Positions 166 to 17,455 of a stretch of 36,436 nt of DNA are shown in pieces. Source of the DNA: Actinomycetota bacterium (GTDB lineage Bacteria > Actinomycetota > Actinomycetes > Nanopelagicales > Nanopelagicaceae); NCBI GenBank assembly GCA_947449535.1, contig CANFRP010000012.1, forward strand, positions 1 to 36,436. The letters run 5' to 3'. A model generated the notes under the pieces. The model worked only from the letters and a program-made list of their open reading frames with translations. It had not been told where the DNA came from and searched no databases. Position 1 is the stretch's first letter. Each line of letters starts with the position of its first letter. The translations under genes were made by a program, and so were the position numbers.

Positions 166-326
166 AGTATTAATTGTTGATTAAAGAGACATAGTGATGT
201 TTGGAATCAAGAAAATTTCTTGTCCCAATATTTGCCCTTTTGCCCTTTAGGTTTCCCCAAAAATCGTGCAATTTTTTTATAGGTTTTGGAAAAATTTATA
301 AATTTGTTTTGCGTATAAAGGAGCAA
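166..326. other. AT-rich intergenic stretch, no gene seen
   Basis: About 160 bases rich in A and T runs lie between the edge ORF and the rnpB terminator hairpin. A short 8-bp tandem (TTTGCCCT twice, 231-246) is visible. The only ORF here runs on into the antisense of rnpB and is not credible. I see no RNA gene, promoter pair or attachment site that I could defend. Confidence 0.4.
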
Positions 327-350
327 GCCCCGCACATTTCTATGCGGGGC
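327..350 (-). terminator. Hairpin downstream of rnpB, likely terminator
   Basis: GCCCCGCA (327-334) pairs with TGCGGGGC (343-350) around an 8-nt loop, 14 nt past the 3' end of rnpB. On the minus strand it is followed by TTGCTCCTTTAT, a weak T-tract. The position directly after the P1 helix fits termination of the RNase P RNA precursor. Confidence 0.6.
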
Positions 351-364
351 CTACACGATTTAAA

Positions 365-713
365 GAAGAGTCGCCCTATAAGCCGGATTTTGTCTCCTTG
401 CGGAGGATCACCATCCATCTAGATCTGCAATTGCTTACAGATTCAAGCAACCTACCTGATGACTTGAGCGAGCAGCTCTTAAGCGCCATCTTTTTGGTCT
501 TGCTCCAAGTGGGGTTTACCTAGCCAACTACATCACTGCAATTGCTGGTGGTCTCTTACACCACCGTTTCACCCTTACCGGTATTACTACCGGCGGTTTA
601 TTTTCTGTGGCACTGTCCTGCGGATTTCTCCGAGTGGCCGTTAGCCACCACTTTGCTCTTTGGAGTCCGGACTTTCCTCGGCATTACTGACGCGGTGATC
701 CGGGCGACTCTTC
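365..713 (-). ncRNA. rnpB: RNase P RNA, bacterial type A
   Basis: This is the catalytic RNA of RNase P, which trims 5' leaders from tRNA precursors. On the minus strand the conserved CR-I block GAGGAAAGTCCGGACTCC is present near the 5' end. The P15 loop GGTAAACCCC, which contacts the tRNA CCA end, is in the middle. The CR-V block with AAATCCGGCTTATAG is close to the 3' end. The ends are set by helix P1: GAAGAGTCGCCC (713-702) pairs perfectly with GGGCGACTCTTC (376-365). This gives about 349 nt, at the short end for type A RNAs, with a small P3 region. The first 30 nt overlap the end of the upstream kinase reading frame. Mature ends are inferred from P1, not measured. Confidence 0.95.
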
Positions 714-2498
714 ATCGACAAGGATACTTGAATCAATTGCGATTCTGACAGTCGTCATTCCTGTCTTATCTGATTTCTCGGTGTACCAGGCTCCCCCAGA
801 TAGGTAATCAAAGAGGTGGAAACCAAGGCCAGGCGAGGCCGATTCGATGCCCAATCCATTATCCGTGGAGCTAACGATGATCTTCAAATCAGAACCACGG
901 CTTACATCGATGGTCAGCTCAGAGGCACGTCCGTGTCGAACAGAATTTGCGATCAATTCTTCTACGCACTCACCAATCGCCTTTACCTCTGAGGGCCTTA
1001 ATTCGGAGTCCGCAATTTTCTGATTGAGTGAAACTTTTACTAGGGCTGACCACAAATTTCTCCGCTTGGCGAGTTCCTCACTTAATGGAGAAGTAGCAGT
1101 TTCAAGTCCGATTTCAGGATTTCGCAAGATTCCCATGATCTGGAGAATTGAGGCTTGTATTGCATCAGCATCCTGAGACTCTTGAGCATTTTGAAGAATC
1201 TTTGCTTGAACAATGAGGTTGGATTGCAATTGGCCATGAATATGTTTCGCCCAAATCTGAGAGATATCAATAATCTCTTTACTGAGGACTTGTTCCTCTG
1301 CAGCTTGTTTTTGAATTTTTGATTTAAGGGCATCACGTATTTGACGATTTGAAATCAAAGTCGCTTGCCCAATATTTAACGCAATCGCAGTAACTAAAAC
1401 AAGAGTAGCAAAGAGCCATGGATACCTTTTGTAACCGTTATCGAATGATTGAATTCCCAGCAAATTCATGAGCAGGCTCGAAATCGGGGGCGTGGCAAAC
1501 ATAATGAAAATAATTCCGACTTGAACTACAGAAGTTCGTAGAGATTCATAACGAGCAAAGACCCATTGGCAGAGTCGAAGAACAATATAGGCGGAGACGA
1601 AATCGAATATTGCGATTGCAAAGGAAGCGATAATCGATTCGTGGCGAAGGAGGATTCCCAAGGTAAAGAAACTTGTTAGGAATGCGAAAACTAAGGGATT
1701 GAGAACTTCATTCCTGCCACTGAGTGCAGCCAAGCTGATGAAACTGCCAACTTTGCCACGCTGAGTGCGTGAGCTACTGGAGCCTTCCTTATTTTGGAGA
1801 GATTGCGATTTCTCAATTAGTTCGTGGGACAAGTTACGGAAAGTACCTGATGCCAAATCTCGGACGATTTCCGGAAGGCGCTCATCCTCCTTTCCGTCAG
1901 CCATGTACTTTTGAAGCATTAACTGCGATTCCAATGCGGTTACTCGAAGTCGCTCTTGGATAGATTCTTGAGCTTTAGCCCTCACTAGATAGAAGAATGA
2001 GGATTGCTTAAATCTAATTTGCTCTTGGCGATCAAGATCGGCAAGAAGTTCCTCCTCAATCTGCCGATAAGAACCGAAGTTCTGAATAACCAACGAATAG
2101 ATCGGTAGCCAAAGGCCACCCACGATAATTGCTCCCAGAATTCGCTTTTGGATAGAGATGAAGTCGTTGAGACCAAAGAGAAGTGCAAGTCGATGGACAA
2201 GCGCACCTGAGATTCCTGCACCTATGGCGCCAATCGCTGAGAGCCAAACGAATGTTGTCTCTATTTCAATTTTCCTAAAAAGCTCCTTAGCCAGGCGCCA
2301 TAAGAAAAAGGTGAAGAGGAGCGAAAACGACTTTATAAATAACCACTGCATGAGAATGCCGAGAGTGGCTGTGCTGGACTTCTCTAAGAAAATTGAAGGA
2401 AATAAAGCCACTATAAAAAGAATCGGAAAATACTGAAGACCGATTTCCAACCGTCGAGAAGAGAGAGTGGAAACGCTCTCCTTAATGAATTGCTTCAC
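684..2498 (-). CDS. Polytopic sensor histidine kinase, partner of the adjacent regulator
   Basis: This is a membrane sensor kinase of 604 residues. Hydrophobic segments come in two groups of about four: roughly residues 21-38, 44-68, 82-110 and 118-140, then 265-285, 288-312, 322-348 and 358-378. A charged, probably helical cytoplasmic stretch (about 143-255) separates them. A coiled-coil-like segment then carries KHIHGQLQS (His419/His421; His421 is the likelier phosphoacceptor). The C-terminal HATPase domain shows an N-box (ECVEELIANSVRHG, about 510-523), DNGLG (546-550) and PGLGF (556-560). The start is GTG, overlapping the regulator stop by 4 nt (GTGA), with GGGAAAG upstream. The last roughly 15 residues lie beyond the ATPase fold and are encoded by sequence shared with rnpB. 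The ligand cannot be read from sequence. Kinase identity is firm, but the non-classical H-box makes the subfamily uncertain. Confidence 0.85.
   Translation of the reverse strand: MKQFIKESVSTLSSRRLEIGLQYFPILFIVALFPSIFLEKSSTATLGILMQWLFIKSFSLLFTFFLWRLAKELFRKIEIETTFVWLSAIGAIGAGISGALVHRLALLFGLNDFISIQKRILGAIIVGGLWLPIYSLVIQNFGSYRQIEEELLADLDRQEQIRFKQSSFFYLVRAKAQESIQERLRVTALESQLMLQKYMADGKEDERLPEIVRDLASGTFRNLSHELIEKSQSLQNKEGSSSSRTQRGKVGSFISLAALSGRNEVLNPLVFAFLTSFFTLGILLRHESIIASFAIAIFDFVSAYIVLRLCQWVFARYESLRTSVVQVGIIFIMFATPPISSLLMNLLGIQSFDNGYKRYPWLFATLVLVTAIALNIGQATLISNRQIRDALKSKIQKQAAEEQVLSKEIIDISQIWAKHIHGQLQSNLIVQAKILQNAQESQDADAIQASILQIMGILRNPEIGLETATSPLSEELAKRRNLWSALVKVSLNQKIADSELRPSEVKAIGECVEELIANSVRHGRASELTIDVSRGSDLKIIVSSTDNGLGIESASPGLGFHLFDYLSGGAWYTEKSDKTGMTTVRIAIDSSILVDEESPGSPRQ
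721..726 (-). promoter_or_regulatory. Candidate -10 box of rnpB inside the kinase gene
   Basis: On the minus strand TATCCT sits 7 nt upstream of the inferred 5' end of rnpB, within the last codons of the kinase gene. No convincing -35 is seen (CTGTCA lies about 19 nt further upstream). If this is not a promoter, rnpB must be processed from the kinase transcript. Confidence 0.3.
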
Positions 2499-3175
2499 GT
2501 AGTCTTTCCCGTTAGTTCTTGATAGAACTTAGCAAGCAGAATTCGTTGATTTACATCGCTCGAATACTTGATTCCACATTTTTTGGCGACTCGGGAGATG
2601 GAAGTCTCCGCCGATTTGATTGTCACATTTCGAATTCGACTGATCTCTGAGTTACTAAGGCCTTGCCAGAGAAACTTAAGAATTTCAATATCGGAGTCAT
2701 TAAGCGAGAGTTCGCTCATTCGGGATGGTGATGGCTTATCAATTCCACTTGTCGCAATACTTTCGACAATCGCCTGAACTAAAGACTCCGCAGAATCAAC
2801 TTTGGCTTTATCTAAATAAATTCCACCCACAGGCAATTCAGGGAGCTTGCGGCCAGTCAATCGCGGATCGCGATATGAGGAGAGAATTACGATTCCGATA
2901 TTGGCATTCTCGCGACGCAATCCCCAAGCGAGGTCAATTCCAGTTGGACCATCGCCTAAATCCAAATCGAGAAGAGCTACCGAAGGATTGGTTGACTTTG
3001 CAATTTCCATTGCCGATCTTGCGTTATTTGTTGTACCAACAACTTCAATATTGTGAAGAAGTAAAGTTGATTCCAATGTAGTGCGCATCAAATTATTGTC
3101 TTCGACAATCAACGCGCGTGTGCGTTTGGTAGATGGGTCAACAGTCATGGCCCAAGTATTCACTCTCCCTCTCAT
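2495..3175 (-). CDS. NarL/FixJ-like response regulator
   Basis: This 226-residue two-component regulator has an N-terminal receiver domain (about 20-140) with acidic residues Glu25-Asp26, the probable phosphoacceptor Asp70 (ALLDLDL) and Lys123. A C-terminal LuxR-type helix-turn-helix follows (about 157-215: LSNSEISRIRNVTIKSAE), but its recognition helix departs from the usual KTVxxHxxxI pattern, so its DNA target is probably unusual. The ATG at 3175 is chosen because TAGGTT lies exactly 6 nt upstream, fitting a leaderless transcript. ATG at 3148 (residue 10) is the alternative, since no good Shine-Dalgarno supports either. It is cotranscribed with the kinase (4-nt overlap) and diverges from the large secreted protein gene, which is an obvious candidate target. 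Confidence 0.88.
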   Translation of the reverse strand: MRGRVNTWAMTVDPSTKRTRALIVEDNNLMRTTLESTLLLHNIEVVGTTNNARSAMEIAKSTNPSVALLDLDLGDGPTGIDLAWGLRRENANIGIVILSSYRDPRLTGRKLPELPVGGIYLDKAKVDSAESLVQAIVESIATSGIDKPSPSRMSELSLNDSDIEILKFLWQGLSNSEISRIRNVTIKSAETSISRVAKKCGIKYSSDVNQRILLAKFYQELTGKTT

Positions 3176-3280: not shown

Positions 3281-6200
3281 ATGCGTAAATATCGCTCGCT
3301 TAGACGTCTAGGACACCTTCTTCTTGTCTCTTTTCTCGCTTCCACAATGCTCTCGGTTTTAATTCCCCCAGCTGCGAAAGCTGCCGTTCCAATTACGACT
3401 TATCCAGCAACCAAGGTTCGTAATATTCTTGAAACTCACAATATTTCCGCCGGAAGTTATACCGCAACAAACATAACAACTTTCACAACTGCAGATAAGA
3501 ATCTTTTTAAGTTTTCACCTACACAAGTTGCCTATAGCCCATTTGTCCAAGTCACTGGATTGGTGAATGACCCGACAACTTGCAACATCACACCTTCAGG
3601 AACTTACGGCGCTAACTTACCTGATGGCTACAACTCTCCATATGATGGAATCCAAATTACTTCGATATCGACAAGTAATGGAATTGTGACTTATAACGCG
3701 CCATCAATCCATAGCGTGCAACCTTCGGAACAAGTAACTATTTCTGGAGCTAGCACTGCGGGTTTCAACGGTACTTTTACTGTTAATTCCGTAGCAAATG
3801 GAACTTCTTTCACTGTAATAAATCCTGCGACTGGTTCTTCTTCCACAGCATTCGGTAAACACACAACTTGGGAGCGCATCTATGGCGCCACTGATACTAC
3901 GTTTACTGTTTCTCGAAACCCAAACGCATCAGGTCAAACATGTACGATCACAACAAATATCGGTTCGAGAGTTGTCTCACGCGATACCGACAACATCCCG
4001 CAGCTTCGCACATCAAACATGGCGACAGATGCAACGGGAGCTACGATTTTTATGGCCACCGGAAGCAGATGGCCAACTCAGCAACTAGGCGAGGGTGAAC
4101 TCTATATATCTAGAAACTCAGGTTCCACATTTACCAAAGTCGACTTAATTGATTCAAATGGAATCTCTCTAGGAAATACCACGATCGCTAATCCCAAAAC
4201 AACCGCGGGATACAACACGCTCTATGGATGTCAACATCGAACCTGTCTGTGGAGCTCGGTCAGCATGTCAGCAGATGGCCAAGTTATTGCAGCAACAAGT
4301 TTAGGCGGGGAGTTTGTCTATTCCACAGATGGTGGTTATCACTGGACCGAAGTTTTGCGTGAACAGTATTTTCGCTGCCAGGCGGATGGAGGCGGTCACA
4401 AATGGCAACAAGTCGCAGTATCAAAAGCTGGTAACAAAATTGTTGCTGGCACAGGTACTGGAATTATTTTCGTTCTGGATCTGACCAAATCCAATAATTT
4501 AACGCTCACTCCTATTATGCCGTCGGGCACTTCGGGTTGCGGGCAGACCCCTTATTACACAAATACTAACCCGGCTGTTTACCACAAGAGCTCCAGTGAT
4601 GTTGGAAGCGTTCCGGCCGTAATGAATACCGCTGGCTCGCTACAAGCACTTGGGATTGATCAATACGCAAAAACTCTGGTATTGGCATATGGGGCGACTG
4701 GAATTTTAATTTGTAAATTAACAAGTTCCCAGATTACTTCATGTAATTTGGCTCCAAATATGACCTTTGACAACGCCACTTCAATCGCCTGGTCTTCTAA
4801 CGGTATACAGTCACAATCGAGCGTTTTCGTTTCTAATTCTGGCCAATATATAACAATCGGTACTTTCTCAAACCTACAGGCTCGTTCCGAAGATTACGGC
4901 GCTACCTTTCAGATGTTTGGAACATCCTATGCCCGAGCACCAGGAGGCAGCTCCACAAATTATTCTGACTGCAACAACCCCGAGGGAATTATCTCAATTG
5001 CGGGTTCTGATAACGGTCAAGTTCAAGTATTTGTCACTCAAAACAGCACAAACTCCTACAACTCCTACGCCATAACTCCGGGTGTATGTAAATCTACAAA
5101 CTTTGGCCGAAAGAATTCCTGGGTCTCAGTCCCGGTTTCCATGTATGCCGGGGATTCGACAGACATTTCTCGACAACAAGTCTGGTCGAGCGTCGTGTTG
5201 GGTTCGACCGGTGCTCCGATGTACTTGGGTTCATATGGCGTTAGTCAGTACTACAACACAACTACTCCATGTAACGCCACATACGTTCTATATTGTTCGC
5301 CATTCTTCTGGTCTAGCTTTGGCGTCACCGGACCGGCATCTTTGGCAACTCCCGTCGGAACCACGATCTCTGGTCAATTTTATTCAACAGTTAACCCGCC
5401 TTCAGGTCAAGTGGCAACAATTTCGTGGGCATTAGGTAAAACTTCGGATGGTTCTTCTGTCTCGGGAATAACAATTACATCAAGTGGAACTTTATTTGTT
5501 GCTAATACCGTTCCGGAGGGTGTTTATGGAATGACGATTAGCGGCACGGATGCTGGAACGACTGCCTCCATTGACATGACGATTTATGTTTACGATCCCA
5601 ATAGAGCTCCGCCAACATTTGATACGCCAGTCTCCACCAGTGATGGCTATACAGTGAACGTAACTAATTACGATTCGAGATATAACTACAACTCTTTTAG
5701 TGATACCGGAACTGTCACGCCTGGAACACCATCGGGCTCCACCTTGCCCTTAACGCTCACGGGTATAGCTCCATCCTCTCCGGCGATAATTACCACCCAA
5801 AGTTTTATGGGAACTGTTGTCACCACTCAGTATTCGATTATTTCGAGTACGGTCACTGGATATTCGACGGGCCCGCAAACTCCCCTTTACATAACATCTG
5901 ATCCGACGATTGCCGCTGGGGGCAGTCGAACTTTGACTACATCTGGTGGCAGTGGTGCAGGCGCCGTTACTTACGCGATAACGACTACCGGAAATGCTGG
6001 GTGTTCTATTTCTGGCGCAGTCCTCTCGGTTACTTCTGTGACCGCGGGAAATACATGTGGAGTTACGGCCACGAAAGCTGCAAATGGAAATTTTCTTTCG
6101 GTTTCGAGTTCGGAACAAACGATTACTGTGAAAACAGCTGGATTGATTCCAACGTTTGACACTCCCATTAGAACTTCAGGTGGGTATACCGTTCACATCA

Positions 6201-6970
6201 CAAATTACAGCGCTTCATACACTTGGACTGTCACTACTTCGGCAGGTTCAATTTCAGTCTCCTCTCCTTCGGGGTCGATTGAGACAATTACAATTACGAG
6301 TTTGACGGGCGGGGCTTCAGCAACAGTCACAGCCTCCACAAGTCGAACAAACTATTCAAACGAAACATCCACTGTGTCAGCTGCAGCGCTAAAGTCGCTT
6401 TCCATCCAAGCAGCTTCACCGACTTTCTATACTGGCTCGGTTGGTAATGAAACTTTTACCGCTTCTGCTCTCTTGGCTGGTGACACGATTACCTCAGTAA
6501 CATTTACCTATTTTGGGACTGGATCCACTTCTTATGGTCCTAGCACAAACATGCCAAGCTCCGCGGGCACATATAGTGCAACTCCCTCCGCTGCCGTCTT
6601 TGGAGTTGGTTCTGCAAGTAATTACATCATCACCTACTCCTACGGAATCATCACAATTATGGCTGACCCAGCATTTGCAGATGGACCAATAATTGTTACG
6701 CTCCCCAGCAATATTGATTTCCGCAAAGCAACATATGTCACTGTCACAATACGTTCGGCTTATCCTGGTCGAGTGGCACTTCTTGCCAACAATCGAAAGG
6801 TTGCTGGCTGCACATCCCTTCCCATCGTGTCTACGACAACGTGTCGTTGGCGACCGAGTACACATGGCCAGATAATTCTCACGGGTGTACTCACTCCTAC
6901 AGATAACGCGATTCCTGTAGCCAAGTTCCCAGTCACTGTGAGCGGTGGCCGTCGAGTGGTCTCCCGCTAA
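3281..6970 (+). CDS. Large secreted beta-rich surface protein with Asp-box and Ig/MBG-like repeats
   Basis: This is a 1229-residue exported protein. A signal peptide is clear: basic MRKYRSLRR, a hydrophobic core and an A-x-A end near residue 34. Residues about 270-545 hold three Asp-box motifs (SxDxGxxW/F): a degenerate SRNSGSTF at 277, STDGGYHW at 348 and SEDYGATF at 536, suggesting a BNR-type beta-propeller. The C-terminal half is Ser/Thr/Gly-rich with repeated Ig-like units: FDTPVSTSDGYTVNVTNY (about 776) and FDTPIRTSGGYTVHITNY (about 955). An MBG-like unit follows near 1040 and a final domain at about 1130-1229. There is no LPXTG motif or C-terminal membrane anchor, so attachment is unexplained. 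A role in adhesion or as an exoprotein is inference; no catalytic residues are evident. Its stop overlaps the next start (TAATG). Confidence 0.85.
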   Translation: MRKYRSLRRLGHLLLVSFLASTMLSVLIPPAAKAAVPITTYPATKVRNILETHNISAGSYTATNITTFTTADKNLFKFSPTQVAYSPFVQVTGLVNDPTTCNITPSGTYGANLPDGYNSPYDGIQITSISTSNGIVTYNAPSIHSVQPSEQVTISGASTAGFNGTFTVNSVANGTSFTVINPATGSSSTAFGKHTTWERIYGATDTTFTVSRNPNASGQTCTITTNIGSRVVSRDTDNIPQLRTSNMATDATGATIFMATGSRWPTQQLGEGELYISRNSGSTFTKVDLIDSNGISLGNTTIANPKTTAGYNTLYGCQHRTCLWSSVSMSADGQVIAATSLGGEFVYSTDGGYHWTEVLREQYFRCQADGGGHKWQQVAVSKAGNKIVAGTGTGIIFVLDLTKSNNLTLTPIMPSGTSGCGQTPYYTNTNPAVYHKSSSDVGSVPAVMNTAGSLQALGIDQYAKTLVLAYGATGILICKLTSSQITSCNLAPNMTFDNATSIAWSSNGIQSQSSVFVSNSGQYITIGTFSNLQARSEDYGATFQMFGTSYARAPGGSSTNYSDCNNPEGIISIAGSDNGQVQVFVTQNSTNSYNSYAITPGVCKSTNFGRKNSWVSVPVSMYAGDSTDISRQQVWSSVVLGSTGAPMYLGSYGVSQYYNTTTPCNATYVLYCSPFFWSSFGVTGPASLATPVGTTISGQFYSTVNPPSGQVATISWALGKTSDGSSVSGITITSSGTLFVANTVPEGVYGMTISGTDAGTTASIDMTIYVYDPNRAPPTFDTPVSTSDGYTVNVTNYDSRYNYNSFSDTGTVTPGTPSGSTLPLTLTGIAPSSPAIITTQSFMGTVVTTQYSIISSTVTGYSTGPQTPLYITSDPTIAAGGSRTLTTSGGSGAGAVTYAITTTGNAGCSISGAVLSVTSVTAGNTCGVTATKAANGNFLSVSSSEQTITVKTAGLIPTFDTPIRTSGGYTVHITNYSASYTWTVTTSAGSISVSSPSGSIETITITSLTGGASATVTASTSRTNYSNETSTVSAAALKSLSIQAASPTFYTGSVGNETFTASALLAGDTITSVTFTYFGTGSTSYGPSTNMPSSAGTYSATPSAAVFGVGSASNYIITYSYGIITIMADPAFADGPIIVTLPSNIDFRKATYVTVTIRSAYPGRVALLANNRKVAGCTSLPIVSTTTCRWRPSTHGQIILTGVLTPTDNAIPVAKFPVTVSGGRRVVSR

Positions 6971-7629
6971 TGGCTAAATACAACGCTTTAAGCCACTCCC
7001 TGGGTGATGGCGATGATTCACTTGAAGAGTTTGAATATTACGATGATGAGTTTGTGGCTGAGGATGGCTCGACTGCCAAACCACGAGTACTCACTAAGGC
7101 ACGTAGATTCTCGATGCTTTTCGCTCTCGGAATGCTGACATCCGCTGTTGCCGCAAACATCACGCTTTCCTTCACTTCAGGTTCTGAATTTGGGCAGGGA
7201 GTAAAGCAACTTAAGGCGTGTACGCCAACACTCTCCATAACGCCAGTTTCAGGTTACGAGAATTCAGGAAGCGGAACATTCACTATGGATGCCGTAGATA
7301 TTTCAGGTATTCCAGATACATGTATTGGATATGACTTTGTCATTAAAGTTTGGGATGACACAACGCAATCGCCACTCAAAGTGACAGATACGAGCGGTAA
7401 TGACACGATTCTTTTAGATTATGTCCGCGTATCCATGCTTCCAGGAAAAGATTTTGCGATGGTCGGCTCACCTAACGCATACGTTGATATTCTCGATACC
7501 TCAACCACTACCGACAATCAAATTTCATTGGTATATGACGCCGGCGCACTGCAAGGAAATATCTCGCACTACGCCGACGCCAAGAATGTTTATAAAGTAA
7601 CGGTTGAAACTTTCGCTACAGGTAGCTAA
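6970..7629 (+). CDS. Single-span exported protein coupled to the large surface protein
   Basis: This 219-residue protein is of no family I can name. The first 45 residues are hydrophilic and very acidic (LEEFEYYDDEF) and end in KARR. One hydrophobic segment follows (about 47-66), then an extracytoplasmic domain beginning FTSGSEFGQGVKQLKACTP, with Cys residues near 84 and 118 that could form a disulfide. The rest is beta-prone and Thr/Asp/Ser-rich. The EFGQG...C-T motif just after the membrane segment looks like a conserved head, and I have the impression of similar proteins in freshwater actinobacteria without a known role. Its ATG overlaps the stop of the 1229-residue gene by 1 nt, so the two are translationally coupled. 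It could be a membrane partner, anchor or pilin-like subunit; this is inference. The segment could be a signal anchor or a cleaved, late-starting signal peptide (AVAA at 59-62). Confidence 0.75.
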   Translation: MAKYNALSHSLGDGDDSLEEFEYYDDEFVAEDGSTAKPRVLTKARRFSMLFALGMLTSAVAANITLSFTSGSEFGQGVKQLKACTPTLSITPVSGYENSGSGTFTMDAVDISGIPDTCIGYDFVIKVWDDTTQSPLKVTDTSGNDTILLDYVRVSMLPGKDFAMVGSPNAYVDILDTSTTTDNQISLVYDAGALQGNISHYADAKNVYKVTVETFATGS

Positions 7630-7636
7630 GTCCCAC

Positions 7637-8611
7637 TTATTCTGGGAAGTGGCAAGCTGCTTGTGATCCACCGATTTGAACCAAAGCTGGCTCAGTCGTT
7701 GAACAGATATCTTGCGCCTTCCAGCAACGAGTACGGAAGCGGCAACCTGATGGTGGGTTAGCGGGGCTTGGAACATCTCCCGTAAGAACGATTCGAGTCT
7801 CCTTGCGGATCTTCTCTTGTCTTGGGTTAGCGAGTGGAACGGCAGAAATAAGAGCCTTTGTGTAAGGGTGGTGTGGATGATTGAAAATCTCATCGCGGGT
7901 ACCGATTTCGACAATTTTACCGAGATACATGACTGCTACTCGAGTAGAGATATGTGAAACGACAGAGAGATCGTGGGCAACAAAGAGGTAGGAGAAACCG
8001 AACTTCTCACGTAGATCATCGAGCAAGTTAAGGATCTGTGCTTGCACAGATACATCAAGGGCCGATACTGGCTCGTCCAATACAACAAGCTTTGGACGGG
8101 TCACTAATGCGCGAGCGATACCTACACGCTGGCGCTGTCCGCCAGAGAATTCATGTGGGTAGCGATTGCCGAACTCACGGGAAAGACCGCAGAGCTCGAT
8201 CATCTCATCGACCCGCGGATCAGTATCGTCTTTCGCCATTCCATGAACGATCAATGGTTCCGCCACAATCTGACGAATTGTCATACGTGGATTGAGTGAT
8301 GCGTATGGATCTTGGAAAACAATCTGGGTGTTCCGGCGCTCTTGCCGCATCTCTTCCCGGGAAAGCGAGCTAATCTCTTTACCGGCGATGGATATCTCGC
8401 CACTTGTTGGCTCAAGTAAACGAAGAATTAATCGAGCGGTAGTGGATTTACCGCAACCTGATTCTCCTACCAGTCCAAGGGTCTCTCCCTCTGCAAGTTC
8501 AAATGAAATGCCATCAACAGCATGGATATGACCGACGGTTCGCTTGAGAAGTCCGCGTTGAATCGGAAACTTCTTTTCTAAGTTAGTGACTTTAAGGAGT
8601 GGCTTGGACAT
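7637..8611 (-). CDS. Oligopeptide/dipeptide ABC importer ATPase (OppF/DppF type)
   Basis: This is the second ATPase (324 residues) of a peptide/nickel-type importer and is the last gene of the operon. It has Walker [10 protein letters not shown], signature [14 protein letters not shown] and Walker [12 protein letters not shown]. The C-terminal oligopeptide-transporter extension ends in a Cys-rich block ([15 protein letters not shown] plus a later Cys). Four such Cys match the pattern that holds an iron-sulfur cluster in some DppD/DppF proteins. The start at 8611 ([13 protein letters not shown]) is chosen because it overlaps the upstream stop (TAATG) and has AGAAGG 7 nt before it. A longer in-frame start at 8716 would overlap the preceding gene by 106 nt and adds no conserved sequence. 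The gene ends 7 nt from the convergent exported-protein gene. Confidence 0.95.
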
Positions 8612-9615
8612 TAGAGCACCTTCTGAGAGAGAGCAAAATTTGGTTCGCCGACGCGATGACAGCGCACAGTGCGCCCATTGGAGATCTGACGAATTTCTGG
8701 AAGATCGGTCTTGCACTTATCGATCGCAAACTCGCAACGAGAAGCAAAAGCACAACCTTTAGGTGGCCGCGACATAACAGGTGGAGATCCTGGGATTGTG
8801 TAGAGGCGCTCCCCCTTCACTGAATCCATCTGCGGAATCGAACGCATGAGGCCCCATGTGTATGGCATCAATGGGTTTTCAAAGAGATCATTTACGGGAG
8901 CTTCTTCCACGATCCGCCCCGCATACATCACTGCCACGCGATCGCAGATACCTGCAACAACGCCGAGATCGTGGGTAATCAGCAGAACTGCAACGTTGAG
9001 CTCGCGCGCAGATTTCTCAATGATCTCAAGGATCTGTGCCTGGATGGTTACATCCAATGCAGTTGTTGGCTCATCCGCAATCAAAAGCTCTGGTTCGCAT
9101 GACAACGCCATGGCGATCATTGCGCGCTGACGCATTCCACCCGAGAACTGGTGTGGGTAATCATCAAAGCGTTGGCGAGGATTAGGGACACCAACAAGAT
9201 CTAACATCTCAATTGACTTCTCTTTTGCTTGTTTGGCAGATACCCGTGAGTGCACGCGAATCATCTCTGAAATCTGATGACCAATGGTGTAAACCGGATT
9301 GAGCGAAGTCATGGGATCTTGGAAAATCATGGAGATCTCTCCGCCGCGGATCTCGCGAAGTTCGCGATCCGGAGTGGTGAGTAGATCAGTGCCCTTCCAC
9401 AGAATCTTGCCCGCTGGATAAATAGCAGGTGGTTGTGGAACAAGTCCGAGAACTGACATCGCAGTAACCGACTTACCAGAACCTGACTCGCCTACTAGAC
9501 CTAGTACTTCTCCAGCACTGATCGATAGCGTCGCGCCATTAATGGCCTCAACCACGCCATCTGATGTATTGAAGTGAACGTGGAGATCTTGAATCTCAAG
9601 AAGTGGCTTACTCAC
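8611..9615 (-). CDS. Oligopeptide/dipeptide ABC importer ATPase (OppD/DppD type)
   Basis: This is the first ATPase (334 residues) of the importer. Walker A is [13 protein letters not shown], the signature is [15 protein letters not shown] and Walker B is [12 protein letters not shown], followed by [15 protein letters not shown]. The C-terminal extension carries [14 protein letters not shown] and a fourth Cys (TVRCHR), again consistent with a possible iron-sulfur site. The start is GTG at 9615, sharing GTGA with the stop of the upstream permease, and its stop shares TAATG with the next ATPase. It would pair with the OppF-type subunit as a heterodimer under the two permeases. Confidence 0.95.
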
Positions 9616-10505
9616 TTTAGTCCTCGCAATTTTGGATCAAGTGCATCGCGCAAGCCATCGCCGATGAGGACGATAGAGAGCGTCAATACAACGAGGATGG
9701 AACCTGGGATGAAGAATACAAATGGGTGATCAGTAAGGAAGTTACGAGAACTAGAGATCATTACACCGAGTGATGGGGTTGGCTCGCGGAATCCCACACC
9801 CAAGAAGGCATAGATTGATTCGGAGAGGATCGATCCTGCGATTGTGAATGCCAAGACCACGATGATTGGTGGGATTGCATTTGGGCCAATGTGACGCAAA
9901 ATTATTCGGGAGGTCTTGGCACCAGATGCGCGTGCCGCTTCCACGTATTCCAGTGACTTCACTTGCATAACCGATGCACGGAACAAACGAGTTGTGGAGT
10001 ACCAACCGGTGAAAACCAAGGCTGCAACAATCACCCAAAATGATGATCCAAAGACGGTGATGATGGCGAAACCAATCAATACGAATGGGATTACCTGCCA
10101 AGTATCGATGAAACGACTGATGATGGTGTCGATGATGCCGCCGAAGTAGCCAGCTATTCCACCCAGAGTCACACCCACAAACACTGAGATAGTCGTTACG
10201 ACAATAGCGACTGTAAGTGAAAGGCGAATACCGGTGGTTACACGAGCAAAAATATCGCGACCAAGATCATCGGTACCAAGCCAGTGACCGAATGTAAATG
10301 GGCTTGTGAGGATATGAGAATCCATACCATCAGTACTCCACTTGGAAATAATTGGGCCAACGATTGCAATGAGTACGAGGAAAGAGAGCATGCTCAGGCC
10401 AACGATGGAAAGTTTGTTGGAGAAGAATCGCTTGCGTACATCTTGCCAATACGAGAGTGACTGAGGAAGGTCGCCTTCAACGTTGAGAGCTGGATCTAGT
10501 GACAT
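9612..10505 (-). CDS. Oligopeptide/dipeptide ABC importer permease (OppC/DppC type)
   Basis: This 297-residue inner permease begins with a cytoplasmic N-terminal segment (SYWQDVRKRFFSNKLSIVGL) typical of OppC_N, then about six membrane spans. The EAA loop that docks on the ATPase is visible as EAARASGAKTSRIILRHIGPNAI. The length is normal for the family. The ATG overlaps the upstream DppB-type stop by 1 nt and the 3' end overlaps the OppD start by 4 nt, so the four genes B-C-D-F are translationally coupled. Confidence 0.95.
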   Translation of the reverse strand: MSLDPALNVEGDLPQSLSYWQDVRKRFFSNKLSIVGLSMLSFLVLIAIVGPIISKWSTDGMDSHILTSPFTFGHWLGTDDLGRDIFARVTTGIRLSLTVAIVVTTISVFVGVTLGGIAGYFGGIIDTIISRFIDTWQVIPFVLIGFAIITVFGSSFWVIVAALVFTGWYSTTRLFRASVMQVKSLEYVEAARASGAKTSRIILRHIGPNAIPPIIVVLAFTIAGSILSESIYAFLGVGFREPTPSLGVMISSSRNFLTDHPFVFFIPGSILVVLTLSIVLIGDGLRDALDPKLRGLK

Positions 10506-11500
10506 TAGTGGTTTGCCTTTCCATCAACTTTGATGCGCGGATCAATGAGGGCGTAGCTCAAATCCACGATGAGGTTAACGATCGCACCAAATGCAATAAC
10601 TACGATCGCAAGACCTAATACGACTGGTGAATCTTGTGAGAGGGCCGAATCCGCGATAGTCGAACCCATTCCTGGGAGTGAGAAGACTTTCTCAGTTTGA
10701 ACTGCAACACCAAAAATGGCAATGAGTGAAGTTCCATAAACAGTAACAACTGGGATTAGCGCATTTCGAAGTGCATGGTGGAACCAGACGCGACGGGCAG
10801 AAAGCCCCTTTGCGAAAGCGGTTCGAATGTAATCGGCGCGGAGAACTTCAAGTAAGGATGAACGCAACATGCGTGCGATGTAGGCCGCGTCTACGACTGC
10901 AACTACCAGCGCCGGAAGTACGAGTCCTTTCCAACCTTCAGTTGGTATCACGCCCCACCATTGGGTTGGCCAGGGCTTATAGAAGTTTGCCCAATCCCAA
11001 TGCATCGAAAATGGAAGAACGCCAAAGAGATATTGAGCGAGAAGTCCAGAGACGAATACTGGAATTCCTTGAATGCCCACAGAGAAAACGGTGCCGAGCT
11101 TGTCCCCAATTGAGCCGCGTTTGATCGCGCTGGTGAGACCGACAGTGAGAGCAATAATTAATTGGAAGAGCGCGCCCCAGAAGAGAAGGCGACCAGAAGT
11201 GGCAAGACCATCATGCAAAATTGTGTTTACAGATTTCTCGTTCTTGTAGGAATAACCAAGGTCACCATGAAATAGGTGGGACCAGAAGCGACCGTATTGA
11301 ACGATGGTGGGTTGATCTAGGCCGTACTTAACGGTGATGTTGTGGAGAATCTCCGGAGGCAATGATTTCTCGCCGCTTTTAAGTGAGATGGGATCTCCGG
11401 GAATAATGAAAAAGAGCGTGAACATCAAAGTCACAGCCGCCCAGACCACGATCAACATCTGACCGAGTCTCTTAATCGTGTAGGTAAACATCGTTCCCAT
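10505..11500 (-). CDS. Oligopeptide/dipeptide ABC importer permease (OppB/DppB type)
   Basis: This 331-residue permease has the DppB hallmark N-terminus (FTYTIKRLGQMLIVVWAAVTLMF), with a first span followed by the conserved external region beginning IPGDPI. The EAA-like loop reads RTAFAKGLSARRVWFHHALRNAL. It lies 99 nt downstream of the binding-protein gene, with a strong hairpin in the gap, so it is probably expressed at a lower level. ATG 11500 is used; ATG 11491 (residue 4) is an alternative, and neither has a well-placed Shine-Dalgarno. Confidence 0.94.
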   Translation of the reverse strand: MGTMFTYTIKRLGQMLIVVWAAVTLMFTLFFIIPGDPISLKSGEKSLPPEILHNITVKYGLDQPTIVQYGRFWSHLFHGDLGYSYKNEKSVNTILHDGLATSGRLLFWGALFQLIIALTVGLTSAIKRGSIGDKLGTVFSVGIQGIPVFVSGLLAQYLFGVLPFSMHWDWANFYKPWPTQWWGVIPTEGWKGLVLPALVVAVVDAAYIARMLRSSLLEVLRADYIRTAFAKGLSARRVWFHHALRNALIPVVTVYGTSLIAIFGVAVQTEKVFSLPGMGSTIADSALSQDSPVVLGLAIVVIAFGAIVNLIVDLSYALIDPRIKVDGKANH

Positions 11501-11518
11501 TCTATGGTTTATTTAATC

Positions 11519-11554
11519 GAAAAGTGGAGAACTCTCGATAGAGAGCCCTCCACT
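11519..11554 (-). terminator. Intercistronic hairpin between binding protein and permease genes
   Basis: On the minus strand AGTGGAG (554-548) pairs with CTCCACT (529-523), and inside it CTCTC/GAGAG form a second 5-bp stem separated by a 2x2 internal loop. TTTT follows. Such structures after the binding-protein gene commonly act as partial terminators or 3' stabilisers that raise the binding protein to permease ratio. That role is inference here. Confidence 0.55.
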
Positions 11555-11599
11555 ATTCGTTACTGCTATAACCGGTATTAACCGATCACTCTTATTGGA

Positions 11600-13222
11600 T
11601 TAGTTCTTTACGATCTGGTCGTAAACAATCATTCCAAGTGGAGAGATTGGGAATGTTGATGTGCTTGGTGCAAGCACAGTTGCGATTCCACGGTTAACTG
11701 TCTGTGTGATTACAGCGTCAGTCACAAGAGCTTGCTTCTCAGCAAGACGGTACTGGCTCTGTGCAAACGCAGGGTTTGTGGTTGCGCGAGCTGATGCGAC
11801 CAATGCATCGAACTTCGATGAGCTGTAACGCTCAAGGTTGTCGCCATCGATTGACTTTGAGTCAAGAAGTGGGAACAAGAAGTTGTCAGCGATTGGGTAA
11901 TCAGCGAACCAGCCTGCGCGGATGATCTGACCCTTACCTTGGCGCATCTTTGTGAAGTATGTGCCATCAGCTGGGAATGGATCGAGCTTTGCAGGAATGC
12001 CAACATCCTTGAGGTTAGCGATGATGATTGAAGCAACCTTGTCCCAACCAGCGCCATCGTTATATGAAAGGCGGATTGGTGTTGTGATCTTGTTGCCTGC
12101 TGCTGTCCAGCGCTTGAAGTCTGCCTTAGCACCTTCGAGATCGCGAGTTGAGGTAAGTCCTTGACCTGCCTTGTAACCAGGAAGTCCTGGTGGAAGGAGA
12201 CCTGACGCTGGCTTACGAACGCCCTGGTAGATCACTGTTGAGATCTGGTTGCGATCGATTGCCTTTGAAATTGCAGAGCGTAGGTCGCGGTTCTTTGTTC
12301 CGCCAACAACTGGATCTTCCCAGTTGAAGCCCCAGTAGTCAGTACCGAGTGTTGTCTTAACACCCTTTGTACCCCACTTGCCGAGAAGCTCGGTGTAGCG
12401 GCCTGCTGGAATTGGACCGTTATCGCACTGACCTGATGCAAATGCGTTGTATGCAGCGTTTACATCTGATGAGATCTTGAATGTGATCTTTGAAAGTGTT
12501 GGCTTTGTTCCACCGTAGTTAGGGTTTGGAACCAAAACAACTTCGCCACCAGCGCGCTTTGTGATTGCTGAAGCGAGCATGTAAGGACCGTTTCCGATCA
12601 ACTTGGTGCCATCTTCTTCAACCTTGCCATCAGCAGAGTTCATTGATGATGGAATTGGTGAGAACACTGAGTGACCAGCGATTGATGGGAAGTCAGTTGT
12701 GACGTCAACCATCTTTACAGTCAATGTGTTTGCATCGTTAGCAACAACTGATGAAGCAGGGAATGCACCCTTACCTGTGTTGTATGCCTCCATGCCGTCG
12801 ATGAAGTAGTTGTGGTAAGCAACTTCTGATGCCATCTTCTCAGCAGCAGCGCGCTTCCAACCGTTAACGAATGATGATGCTGTTACAGCTTCACCGTTTG
12901 AGAACTTGAGGCCAGACTTGATCTTGAAGACCCATGTCTTTCCGCCATCTTTTGTTGACCATGATGAAGCAGCAGCTGGAATCAACTTGCCGTTTGCATC
13001 TGTGTCTGTAAGACCGTCGTAAAGCATTGTTGCAACGTTTGCTCCGACCAATGTTGAGGTAAGCGCTGGATCGATATGATCAGGCTCGCCTGCAGCAAAG
13101 AGCTGGCAGTCAACGTAGGTAGGTGCTGTAGCTGCGTGAGCAGTCATGACAGATCCACCTGCAATTAGAGCGACCGCAGCAGCAAGAGCTGTAGCGCGTA
13201 CGCTTAGTTTCTGTACCTTCAT
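11600..13222 (-). CDS. Extracellular solute-binding protein, family 5 (peptide/nickel type)
   Basis: This 540-residue binding protein feeds the downstream importer. Family-5 features include FAAGEPDHIDPALTS near the mature N-terminus, GLTDTDANGKLIPAAASSWS, WVFKIKSGLKFSNGEAVTA, an AISKAIDRNQI segment and a C-terminal FLFPLLDSKS region. The signal peptide (MKVQKLSVRATALAAA to AHA near residue 30) ends in an A-x-A site and has no lipobox Cys, so a signal peptidase I-processed, unlipidated protein is predicted; that is unusual for a monoderm. The start at 13222 is chosen for AAAGGATGG about 8 nt upstream; the in-frame ATGs at 13231 and 13261 are less well placed. Substrate is not readable. Probably a highly expressed gene of the operon. 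Confidence 0.93.
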   Translation of the reverse strand: MKVQKLSVRATALAAAVALIAGGSVMTAHAATAPTYVDCQLFAAGEPDHIDPALTSTLVGANVATMLYDGLTDTDANGKLIPAAASSWSTKDGGKTWVFKIKSGLKFSNGEAVTASSFVNGWKRAAAEKMASEVAYHNYFIDGMEAYNTGKGAFPASSVVANDANTLTVKMVDVTTDFPSIAGHSVFSPIPSSMNSADGKVEEDGTKLIGNGPYMLASAITKRAGGEVVLVPNPNYGGTKPTLSKITFKISSDVNAAYNAFASGQCDNGPIPAGRYTELLGKWGTKGVKTTLGTDYWGFNWEDPVVGGTKNRDLRSAISKAIDRNQISTVIYQGVRKPASGLLPPGLPGYKAGQGLTSTRDLEGAKADFKRWTAAGNKITTPIRLSYNDGAGWDKVASIIIANLKDVGIPAKLDPFPADGTYFTKMRQGKGQIIRAGWFADYPIADNFLFPLLDSKSIDGDNLERYSSSKFDALVASARATTNPAFAQSQYRLAEKQALVTDAVITQTVNRGIATVLAPSTSTFPISPLGMIVYDQIVKN

Positions 13223-13243
13223 GTAGACCATCCTTTTATTTAC

Positions 13244-13334
13244 CGCGACGGCGAGCGCCACCGCGTGAGGGATTTGGAGCCAAAGGTGACTCCGAGGTGG
13301 GCTTACTTTAGGTCTAATTGAGGGTCTAAGCCAA
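13244..13334 (-). promoter_or_regulatory. Candidate promoter and 5' UTR hairpin of the importer operon
   Basis: The 211-nt gap between the divergent binding-protein and yaaA genes holds a possible minus-strand promoter: TTGGCT (334-329), an 18-nt spacer and TAAAGT (310-305). A GC-rich hairpin (13244-13265) follows in the leader: GCGGTGGC pairs with GCCGTCGC around GCTC, with two G-U pairs. It ends about 20 nt upstream of the start codon, next to the Shine-Dalgarno. It could set mRNA stability or translation. The promoter match is weak. Confidence 0.3.
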
Positions 13335-13433
13335 GCCGCTATCAGCGAAAATAAGGTGATTTTGAGCGTGGCAGTTATTACATTCTCGTAACTATCGCAC
13401 CAGACCCTAGATTGACCGAGTGAAGGTGAAGCC

Positions 13434-14084
13434 GTGCTGATATTGCTCCCTCCGAGTGAGGCTAAGAATCAACCGACGAAATCCTTGAAAATTAAACTCT
13501 CCGAACTCTCATTTTTCGAAGAGCTCACACCCACTAGATCTCTTCTTCTGGCAAGACATAAGGAAATCGATCTCTCGGCAATTGCCCCAGCCTTTAACGT
13601 CTACTCCGGAGTCCTCTATCGCGCGCTCGACTACACATCACTCACCAAGGAGGCGAGAAAGAGGGCGAATAAAGATCTACTTATCATTTCAGCTGCCTTT
13701 GGTCTGCTTCGCCTGGGCGATGAGATTCCGTTTTATAAATTTAAAATCGAGCCAATACTTTGGAAGAAAGATATCGAACGAGCGCTGAAAGGTTATGACG
13801 AGCGATTAGTGGTCGATGCCCGCTCTTCGACTTATTCCACCGTCTGGACTCCCAATCCTTTTAACTCGGTCGGGATTCGCGTCTTCACAAAAGTAAAAGG
13901 CCAACTCAAAGTCATTACCCATATGTCGAAGAAAACTCGTGGCGAAGTGGTCCGATATTTATTGGAATCCGAGAAGGAGCCTCGCACTCCTCGCGAATTA
14001 CATCAACTCATCAATAAGAAATTTACTTGCAAACTCGTCGAGCCAGAAGGAAAGAAGAGTTGGTTTATTGATGTGATTGCGTAA
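13434..14084 (+). CDS. yaaA: YaaA (DUF328) family protein, peroxide stress-associated
   Basis: This 216-residue protein opens with LILLPPSEAKN, the actinobacterial form of the YaaA N-terminus. It also contains FNVYSGVLYRALDY, ISAAFGLLRLGDEIPFYKFKI and VVDARSSTYSTVW, all typical of the family. YaaA in E. coli lowers free iron and limits damage during peroxide stress and binds DNA in vitro; transfer of that role here is by family only. The start is GTG at 13434 with AAGGTG 5 nt upstream. The last 20 nt overlap the convergent RNase H-phosphatase gene. It is somewhat shorter than the E. coli protein (about 258 residues). Confidence 0.88.
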   Translation: MLILLPPSEAKNQPTKSLKIKLSELSFFEELTPTRSLLLARHKEIDLSAIAPAFNVYSGVLYRALDYTSLTKEARKRANKDLLIISAAFGLLRLGDEIPFYKFKIEPILWKKDIERALKGYDERLVVDARSSTYSTVWTPNPFNSVGIRVFTKVKGQLKVITHMSKKTRGEVVRYLLESEKEPRTPRELHQLINKKFTCKLVEPEGKKSWFIDVIA

Positions 14085-15162
14085 GTCCGATATGGCTTCG
14101 CTCGCTCAATGATTTGAGAGCGCGCAATCCATCGGATGGCCAGATATTGGCGGTGGTAATGCTGCACGGCGCAATATCGATATGGAAGAAAGTATCGATG
14201 GGAACGCCCATGATGAGACAAGCGACTGCTTTCACAACTACGTTATGGGTGACCACAACAATTTTCTTGCCAGGGTGTTCTAACGCAAGATCTTGAAGCG
14301 CAACTTCAATTCGCTCGGCAACTTCGTCATAGGACTCTCCGCCGGTTGGAGCAAAATCGGTTGTGGAAACCCATGCATCCCATTCATTGGGAAATAACTC
14401 TTGGACTTGTGCGACAGTCAATCCATCCCATTCACCAAATCCACATTCCACCCAGGCCTCATCAAAGTGAATATCCAATCCGACTTCACCTTGAATTGCC
14501 TCTGCTGTCTGACGAGTACGCACCATTGGGGATGAAATAATTAAATCAGGTTTGCGGGCAGCTATTTCTTTGGCAACTGCCTCCGCTTGTTTCAATCCAA
14601 TGTCGCTGAGTTCTGGATCTGATCCACCGACGCCGGAGAAGCGACGCTCTGGAGTAAGAATTGTTTCGCCGTGGCGAATGAAATAGATAGTTGTGGGAGT
14701 CTCGTTTGCGACCAATCGCTCAGTGAGAAAATTCCTTTGGCGCGCCGCAGATGGCGTCGACACATCTCCATCCAAAGCCTTATTCGCTAAACGATCAGCG
14801 TGTGAGTTCTCATCCCGCGGAATCCACTTATAAGTAACTAAGTCGCCGGGGTGCGCAGCTTTCGCTTCCTTGGCTAGTACTTTCATATCAGGATGCTTCA
14901 CTTGCCAGCGCCCAGACATCTGTTCGACTACCAATTTAGAATCCATACGTACTTCAACAGTTGCGTTGGGATCTAATTCATTTACTTTGCGAAGAGCAGC
15001 TAGAAGTCCGCTGTATTCGGCAACGTTATTGGTGGCAATTCCAATAGTTTCATAGAGCTCATGCAGAATCTTTCCACCCTCAGAGACCACTGCGCCATAA
15101 GCGGCGGGGCCGGGATTGCCGCGAGATCCCCCGTCGGCGCTACAAATAAAGTGGCGAGCCAT
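14065..15162 (-). CDS. Bifunctional RNase H / histidine phosphatase
   Basis: This 365-residue fusion matches the actinobacterial type represented by Rv2228c. The N-terminal RNase HI domain (about 1-135) shows the acidic active-site residues in SADGGSRGNPGP, NNVAEYSGLL, VRMDSKLVVEQ and DENSHADRLANKA. It would cut RNA in RNA-DNA hybrids. The C-terminal histidine phosphatase domain (about 155-355) has the phosphoacceptor motif IRHGETILTPERRFSG and a later catalytic VVTHNVVVKA. In mycobacteria this half is linked to CobC-like alpha-ribazole phosphatase or acid phosphatase activity. The start at 15162 shares TAATG with the zinc-ribbon gene stop; the upstream in-frame ATG at 15189 would add nine unconserved residues. 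The 3' end overlaps yaaA by 20 nt. Confidence 0.94.
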   Translation of the reverse strand: MARHFICSADGGSRGNPGPAAYGAVVSEGGKILHELYETIGIATNNVAEYSGLLAALRKVNELDPNATVEVRMDSKLVVEQMSGRWQVKHPDMKVLAKEAKAAHPGDLVTYKWIPRDENSHADRLANKALDGDVSTPSAARQRNFLTERLVANETPTTIYFIRHGETILTPERRFSGVGGSDPELSDIGLKQAEAVAKEIAARKPDLIISSPMVRTRQTAEAIQGEVGLDIHFDEAWVECGFGEWDGLTVAQVQELFPNEWDAWVSTTDFAPTGGESYDEVAERIEVALQDLALEHPGKKIVVVTHNVVVKAVACLIMGVPIDTFFHIDIAPCSITTANIWPSDGLRALKSLSERSHIGLTQSHQ

Positions 15163-15887
15163 TAGATGCGCACCAAAATTCGACGGCACTCCTCGCAGCG
15201 CACAATCTCATCTGTGGGCAGGTTCTTAATCCGCTCCATCTCAATCGCGTTAACAGCTAAGTTGCAGCCTTCGCACTTATTGCCAATTAAAAGTGCTGCG
15301 CCAACACCATATTCCTTGGCTCGAATTTTTTCGTATAAATCAATCAGAGCTTGATCAATCTTGGGCGCAACTAAGGTCCGTTCTGAATTCTTCAGCGCGA
15401 TCTCTTTATTAATTTCGGTAATGGAATTCTCTAGGCGGATGTTGAGCTCGAGCTCAAGCTGTGCCAATCCTTCAGCATCAGTCTTCAAGGTATCGACGCG
15501 AGCTTGCGCTGCATCTACCCGCATCATGATTTCAAGTTCGCCATCTTCAAGTTCTGCTTTGCGCTTCGCAAGGGTGCCTAGCTCGTGTTGGAGTTGCTCT
15601 AATTCTTTAGGCGATGCGCTGCCGGCGCTGAGGCGAGCCTCATCTTTGGCCATGCGATCGGTTACGGCTTCGACATCGACTTCGCTTCGGCGTAAATCGA
15701 TCTTCACATCGGCGAGTTCGGCTTCGGCGCCTGCCATCTCATCGACTGTGGTTTGGATGCGGGCTTTAATTGCAGAGATCTGTTCTCGCTCGGGAAGAGC
15801 AGCTAGGCGGGCTTGCGCCGATTGAATTGTTGAATCGATGCGCTGAAGTTCGATTAAGAAATTTTGGTGCTCAACGGAAGCATTCAT
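15162..15887 (-). CDS. Coiled-coil protein with C4 zinc ribbon
   Basis: This 241-residue protein is mostly a long helical coiled coil (about 10-180: ELQRIDSTIQSAQARLAAL onward, rich in E, K, L and A). It ends in a C4 zinc ribbon (CEGC...CEEC, about 208-235). This is the family that sits beside the RNase H-phosphatase in mycobacteria (Rv2229c), where NIF3 also neighbours it; NIF3 is absent here. Its molecular role is not established. A clear AAGGAG lies 8 nt before the ATG. The gene is the first of a two-gene unit with the RNase H-phosphatase. Confidence 0.92.
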   Translation of the reverse strand: MNASVEHQNFLIELQRIDSTIQSAQARLAALPEREQISAIKARIQTTVDEMAGAEAELADVKIDLRRSEVDVEAVTDRMAKDEARLSAGSASPKELEQLQHELGTLAKRKAELEDGELEIMMRVDAAQARVDTLKTDAEGLAQLELELNIRLENSITEINKEIALKNSERTLVAPKIDQALIDLYEKIRAKEYGVGAALLIGNKCEGCNLAVNAIEMERIKNLPTDEIVRCEECRRILVRI

Positions 15888-17047: not shown

Positions 17048-17455
17048 TTACTTGCGGGCAGATTTGCGAGCAACTAATCGAGTAGCCACCCAATCTACCC
17101 CAGCAGCGAATGAAACTGTTTGTGAGAGTCCTGCAGTTGGCGCCGCATCTTGAATATCACTCGCCTCGATATATCCGTCTCGGCCCATCTTGGGAGTCAT
17201 CAACCAGATATCACCATCCTCCGATAGGAAAGTGAGGGCATCTACCAATTCATCCACCAGGTCACCATCATCTTCGCGAAACCAAATCAAAACCCCATCG
17301 ACAACTTCTTCGGCATCACTGGCAAGCAGTGGACTGCCGACTTTGGAAACGACGGCTGTTCGAAGATCTTCATCGCAATCGGCCCCATGGCCAAATTCGA
17401 GAATGAGGTCGCCGCTCTCAAAGCCAAAACGATCGACTACTGCCTCAGAGCCCAT
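17048..17455 (-). CDS. DUF3052 family protein
   Basis: This 135-residue cytoplasmic acidic protein belongs to a family confined, as far as I know, to actinobacteria (Rv2239c type). Visible family segments are GFESGDLILEFGHGADCDEDLR, VDGVLIWFREDDGDLVDELVDAL, GDIWLMTPKMGRDGYIEASDI and GLSQTV. No catalytic motif is apparent. It lies 35 nt upstream of the peroxiredoxin gene on the same strand and diverges from aceE, a neighbourhood conserved in mycobacteria. ATG 17455 is used. An AAGGGAG lies about 14 nt upstream, too far to be decisive. Confidence 0.9.
   Translation of the reverse strand: MGSEAVVDRFGFESGDLILEFGHGADCDEDLRTAVVSKVGSPLLASDAEEVVDGVLIWFREDDGDLVDELVDALTFLSEDGDIWLMTPKMGRDGYIEASDIQDAAPTAGLSQTVSFAAGVDWVATRLVARKSARK

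Follow-up and report, generated by a model that had tools for sequence, protein, structure and literature searches.

The rnpB locus and its two-component operon

The window, by which is meant the whole stretch of 36,436 nt that was analysed, carries the gene for a class A RNase P RNA (rnpB) and, on the same strand, a two-component operon whose sensor kinase frame terminates inside it (Table 1). A full-length match to Rfam RF00010 (model positions 1-367) was obtained at 711-363 (-) with 322.6 bits against a cut-off of 100, the second highest score among all rnpB loci scored, and this was the only copy found in its own genome. Helix P1 was paired by eye, and the predicted fold of the RNA opens with P1 extended to 713.

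Table 1. Coordinates of features at the rnpB locus of the window
Feature	Position	Strand	Remarks
Terminator-like hairpin	323..354	-	Closely follows rnpB; lies in the path of rnpB transcripts and of read-through from the kinase
rnpB, RNase P RNA class A	363..713	-	Rfam RF00010 at 363-711; P1 pairing reaches 713
rnpB P1 3' strand, GGGCGACUCUUC	365..376	-	Pairs with 713-702
Kinase stop UAA	684..686	-	Inside GUAA loop of rnpB helix P3
Kinase frame/rnpB overlap	684..713	-	Encodes EESPGSPRQ and stop
Sensor histidine kinase frame	684..2498	-	604 aa, GTG start, TAA stop 684-686; sub-threshold HATPase_c match, distant homologs
Kinase residues 590-604, rnpB-locus sequence	687..731	-	Promoter and 5' end of rnpB; no counterpart in other kinases
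rnpB P1 5' strand, GAAGAGUCGCCC	702..713	-	By-eye pairing, two bases beyond Rfam model
Predicted -10 box TATCCT, rnpB promoter	721..726	-	Within kinase codons
Response regulator (receiver and LuxR-type HTH)	2495..3175	-	Overlaps kinase start; two-component operon
Insert gene pair, 1229-aa repeat/surface-like and 219-aa protein	3281..7629	+	Divergent
Oligopeptide ABC transporter operon (OppF, D, C, B, A)	7637..13261	-	Within 12.7-kb insert
yaaA (+) and RNase H/CobC (-)	13434..15189	both	Conserved neighbours, adjoin rnpB in related genomes

The kinase frame is judged to be genuine because its 604 codons are open, it aligns near full length with distant kinases of the family (22-27% identity) and it has the sole positive codon score among the six frames, albeit of a low value (0.058), which would fit acquired DNA. 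HATPase_c was matched at residues 507-564 with an E value of 1.8e-4 and 22.4 bits, under the Pfam cut-off of 26.4, and the homolog alignment shows an N-box-like (EELIANSVRHG) and a G-box-like (DNGLG) motif. No close relative of this kinase was found among the genome contigs searched, nor at any rnpB locus. The response regulator, with a receiver domain at 45.5 bits (E 9.3e-12), overlaps the start of the kinase gene at 2495-2498, and a response regulator adjoins the kinase gene in most of the homologous kinase loci too.

The GC content of the window is 48%, the genome is 1.46 Mb and the named assemblies with close relatives of its RNase H/CobC include those of 'Candidatus Planktophila'; by inference these traits are in keeping with acI freshwater actinobacteria (compare PMC5301498).

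Extent of the overlap and origin of the kinase tail

The kinase frame and rnpB, which runs from 713 to 363, share 30 nt, or 28 nt if measured from the start of the Rfam model (711). The sequence-only reading, in which the kinase stop lies 30 nt inside rnpB and the P1 5' strand region also encodes the kinase tail, was borne out by the P1 pairing, which puts the rnpB start at 713: the codons for EESPGSPRQ occupy 713-687 (-) and the UAA supplies the final three bases of the P3 loop. The overlap as an observation is confirmed.

That reading had also placed the end of the HATPase domain before the tail and proposed that the frame reads into rnpB to find a stop, and both points hold. In the aligned homologs between 0 and 6 residues follow the column of kinase residue 590, compared with 14 in this kinase. 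When the window was compared with other rnpB loci by blastn, the DNA match started at position 731, which is codon 590, and ran on into rnpB; the junction region matches that of genome G026 at 88.6% over 44 nt. Two separate comparisons, one of protein homologs and the other of rnpB-locus DNA, therefore put the border of the kinase at the same codon, and as the homology to kinases ends (~590) where that to rnpB loci begins (731), the tail can be assigned to rnpB-locus sequence. The true C-terminus is judged from distant relatives alone, to which the kinase is ~25% identical, and with this in mind the tail SSILVDEESPGSPRQ is read as the rnpB promoter and P1 strand translated in the kinase frame.

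Over its first 23 nt rnpB has the consensus sequence of the 97 family loci, which is found unchanged in 56 of them, the window included. No base in this block has therefore been altered for coding; the RNA dictates the bases and the tail follows. Together with the promoter, the constrained bases of P1 account for all of the tail's codons, and in its sequence rnpB gives no sign of any cost from the overlap.

Transcription of rnpB

In 87 of the 97 family loci a TANNNT box precedes the Rfam start by 14-18 nt, most frequently as TATCCT (37 loci), and the TATCCT at 726-721 would set the start of rnpB at ~713. This box is attributed to rnpB since the upstream genes vary widely among the loci that have it. 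The promoter call is based on position and conservation; its -35 element is weak and the site is absent from the consensus-scan list. Most likely, on this evidence, rnpB keeps its own promoter inside the coding sequence of the kinase.

No terminator-like hairpin was found between the kinase and rnpB on their strand and there is one just after rnpB, so some read-through from the operon into rnpB, halting at that hairpin, is also likely. The sequence-only reading had offered either an rnpB promoter within the coding region or a supply of RNase P RNA that is coupled to the kinase operon; the conserved -10 box favours the former, and the latter is disfavoured as the overlap is unique and the kinase is elsewhere not found at rnpB.

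History of the locus

The gene order in relatives is AceE, peroxiredoxin, CT398, RNase H/CobC, (yaaA) and rnpB. In the closest kin, G005 (RNase H/CobC 80% identical) and G026, yaaA is divergent and adjoins rnpB and this kinase is missing there; none of the other genomes examined has it beside rnpB either. In the window 12.7 kb separates yaaA from rnpB, and this block contains the opp transporter operon, the 1229-aa repeat protein, the 219-aa protein, the regulator and the kinase, the last at the rnpB edge. A search for an rnpB remnant beside yaaA (13200-13460) found none. Different inserts lie upstream of rnpB in other genomes of the genus (G001, G008 and G010).

The 1229-aa protein of the insert (3281-6970, +) looks secreted, has no Pfam match and has only patchy relatives in the family. 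Its gene is divergent from the two-component operon, which may control it.

Survey of rnpB loci in the family

The survey covered the loci of the family, and codon scoring rather than plain open frames was needed to find the upstream genes. A same-strand coding frame ends within about 210 nt of rnpB in 46 of the 97 loci, a count that is approximate as the gene calls use a codon score trained on the window. In 45 of these the upstream gene stops at a point from -214 to -11, counted from the Rfam start, mostly in the promoter region, and only that of the window enters rnpB. Genes crowding the rnpB promoter are thus the rule in the family, and only the missing stop is exceptional. The expectation that a same-strand overlap of a protein gene with rnpB would be unusual is upheld by these numbers (1 of 46 comparable loci), and the overlap is kept at none of the 45 others.

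Among the high-GC class relatives there are long open frames that extend into rnpB, such as one at L019 (+76 nt); they were not counted, as their translations look wrong-frame and Arg/Gly-rich by eye. No published case of a same-strand protein gene running into rnpB was found in a literature search of incomplete coverage, and the exact 23-nt junction pattern had no match in viral contigs.

Repeats of the rnpB 3' end

The last bases of rnpB (CCGGCTTATAGGGCGACTC) were found in 87 of 121 family genomes, with at least two copies in about 55, and never in the reversed control. In the complete genomes G077, G105, G120 and G035 the extra copies lie mostly after rnpB, on the same strand and at intervals of roughly 0.4-5 kb, and the window's own genome has two copies near contig starts (C42:125-146 and C45:215-236). 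Many of the family's contigs end within rnpB, and some genomes carry the gene twice, in full or shortened form. The 3' ends of tRNA and tmRNA genes are well-known attachment sites for islands, and from the distribution of these repeats the 3' end of rnpB is apparently an attachment site for genomic islands as well. The repeat had no match in viral contigs, and a literature search on rnpB as an integration site returned nothing to the point.

Several further arrangements were observed. The 3' end in the form CCGGCTTATAGGGCGACTCTTC (window 365-386, -) recurs downstream of rnpB in about 55 of the 121 family genomes, often as tandem copies 0.4-5 kb apart, and such repeats are present at L064, L068, L072, L079 and others. 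Locus L090 (G000:C42), on a contig of the window's own genome that begins with the repeat, encodes a tyrosine integrase at 5696-6856 (PF00589, 71 bits), and the next gene is an EamA transporter fragment (6913-7350) that resembles one downstream of rnpB in G010 (L064, 8661-9128). G010 itself has two full-length, diverged rnpB copies ~8 kb apart on one strand (L064 1178-1529 and 9350-9705), between which lie a sugar transporter island and an RNase H/CobC fragment. In G033 (L083) an rnpB 5' fragment with its promoter (17176-17250) is followed by a glycoside hydrolase gene, which that promoter may now drive, and then by a complete rnpB (19050-19396). Short rnpB-like copies of ~245-270 nt occur at G113:C96:5495-5739, G119:C18:13043-13289 and G071:C103:4115-4383; they match both ends of the model and are ~100 nt too short, and could be either pseudogenes or mobile-element versions.

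Origin of the overlap

The overlap seems to be a single accident at a site that has been much rearranged, and not a regulatory device. We give a probability of about 80% to the reading that the kinase lost its stop at the edge of the insert, that the next stop happened to lie in rnpB and that rnpB kept its own promoter. The two-component operon would have arrived, within the 12.7-kb block, beside rnpB on its upstream side, the edge lying no more than a few bases from the -10 box, and the stop would have been lost at that edge, presumably by the joining event itself or by a one-base deletion. Ribosomes would then cross the rnpB promoter and the P1 5' strand and halt in the P3 loop, where they meet the first in-frame UAA, so that ~14 probably functionless residues are added to the kinase. 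The RNA would be transcribed from its own putative promoter (-10 TATCCT, 726-721) with a start at ~713 and would fold normally, and read-through from the operon would add little RNase P RNA.

The overlap is read from one assembly, near a contig end, and no second genome of the species was found. An assembly or sequencing error, with one base missing near 738-762, a true kinase end at about residue 588 and hence no overlap, is nonetheless unlikely. A one-base insertion at each of the tested positions from 762 to 738 does bring a TGA (735-733) into frame to give a protein of 588 residues, which is where the kinase homologs end, and the site lies ~0.7 kb from the end of the contig. However, the last beta strand (GMTTVRIAI) is correct up to that TGA, so that the missing base would be confined to a few codons, the site has no long homopolymer, and a genuine one-base deletion in the organism would look identical.

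That the tail EESPGSPRQ is a useful extension of the kinase under selection is extremely improbable; the sole point for it is that the tail is encoded, but the rnpB promoter and P1 explain its every base and it is missing from the kinase homologs. Functional coupling, in which the operon transcript partly supplies RNase P RNA or ribosomes ending in P3 regulate its folding, is very unlikely. The shared strand and the placing of the terminator-like hairpin past rnpB and not before it would suit such an arrangement, and a ribosome sitting at the UAA would cover both P1 and P3; against it, no other genome shares the overlap, the relatives examined do not have the kinase at their rnpB loci and a conserved -10 box immediately precedes rnpB. 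The specific form in which kinase translation ending in RNase P RNA sets the amount of operon transcript that folds into active RNase P is highly improbable, although if true such translation-controlled folding would tie a sensor system directly to the processing of tRNA in this species.

With accidental loss of the stop, this would be one further example in a compact genome of a gene overrunning its lost stop; the gene that it enters encodes an essential RNA and is unchanged in response. Such a loss would also mean that an rnpB promoter can lie wholly within coding sequence, and that the end of this kinase would be misplaced by gene finders which bar any overlap with an RNA gene. In this family of freshwater actinobacteria both flanks of rnpB are a hotspot of rearrangement, and the apparent attachment site for islands at the rnpB 3' end is a better lead than the overlap.

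Comparison with known systems

The operon resembles those of NarQ/MctS-like kinases with NarL-type regulators in having the response regulator gene first, then the kinase with an overlapping start, and in the C-terminal position of the kinase's HATPase_c match, here a sub-threshold one; it differs in that this kinase is very divergent and reaches no curated cut-off. Within the family one close parallel is RNase H/CobC of G018, which ends 23 nt before rnpB and likewise has its same-strand 3' end over the rnpB promoter region. The family's upstream genes are alike in that the rnpB -10 box lies inside or adjoins the gene, but their stops fall 11-214 nt before rnpB, whereas that of the window's kinase falls 30 nt inside. 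When bacterial genes lose their stop, the frame continues to the next chance stop and a short C-terminal tail is added. The kinase of the window would differ from such extensions generally in that the sequence it enters is neither spacer nor a coding gene but a structured, essential RNA gene.
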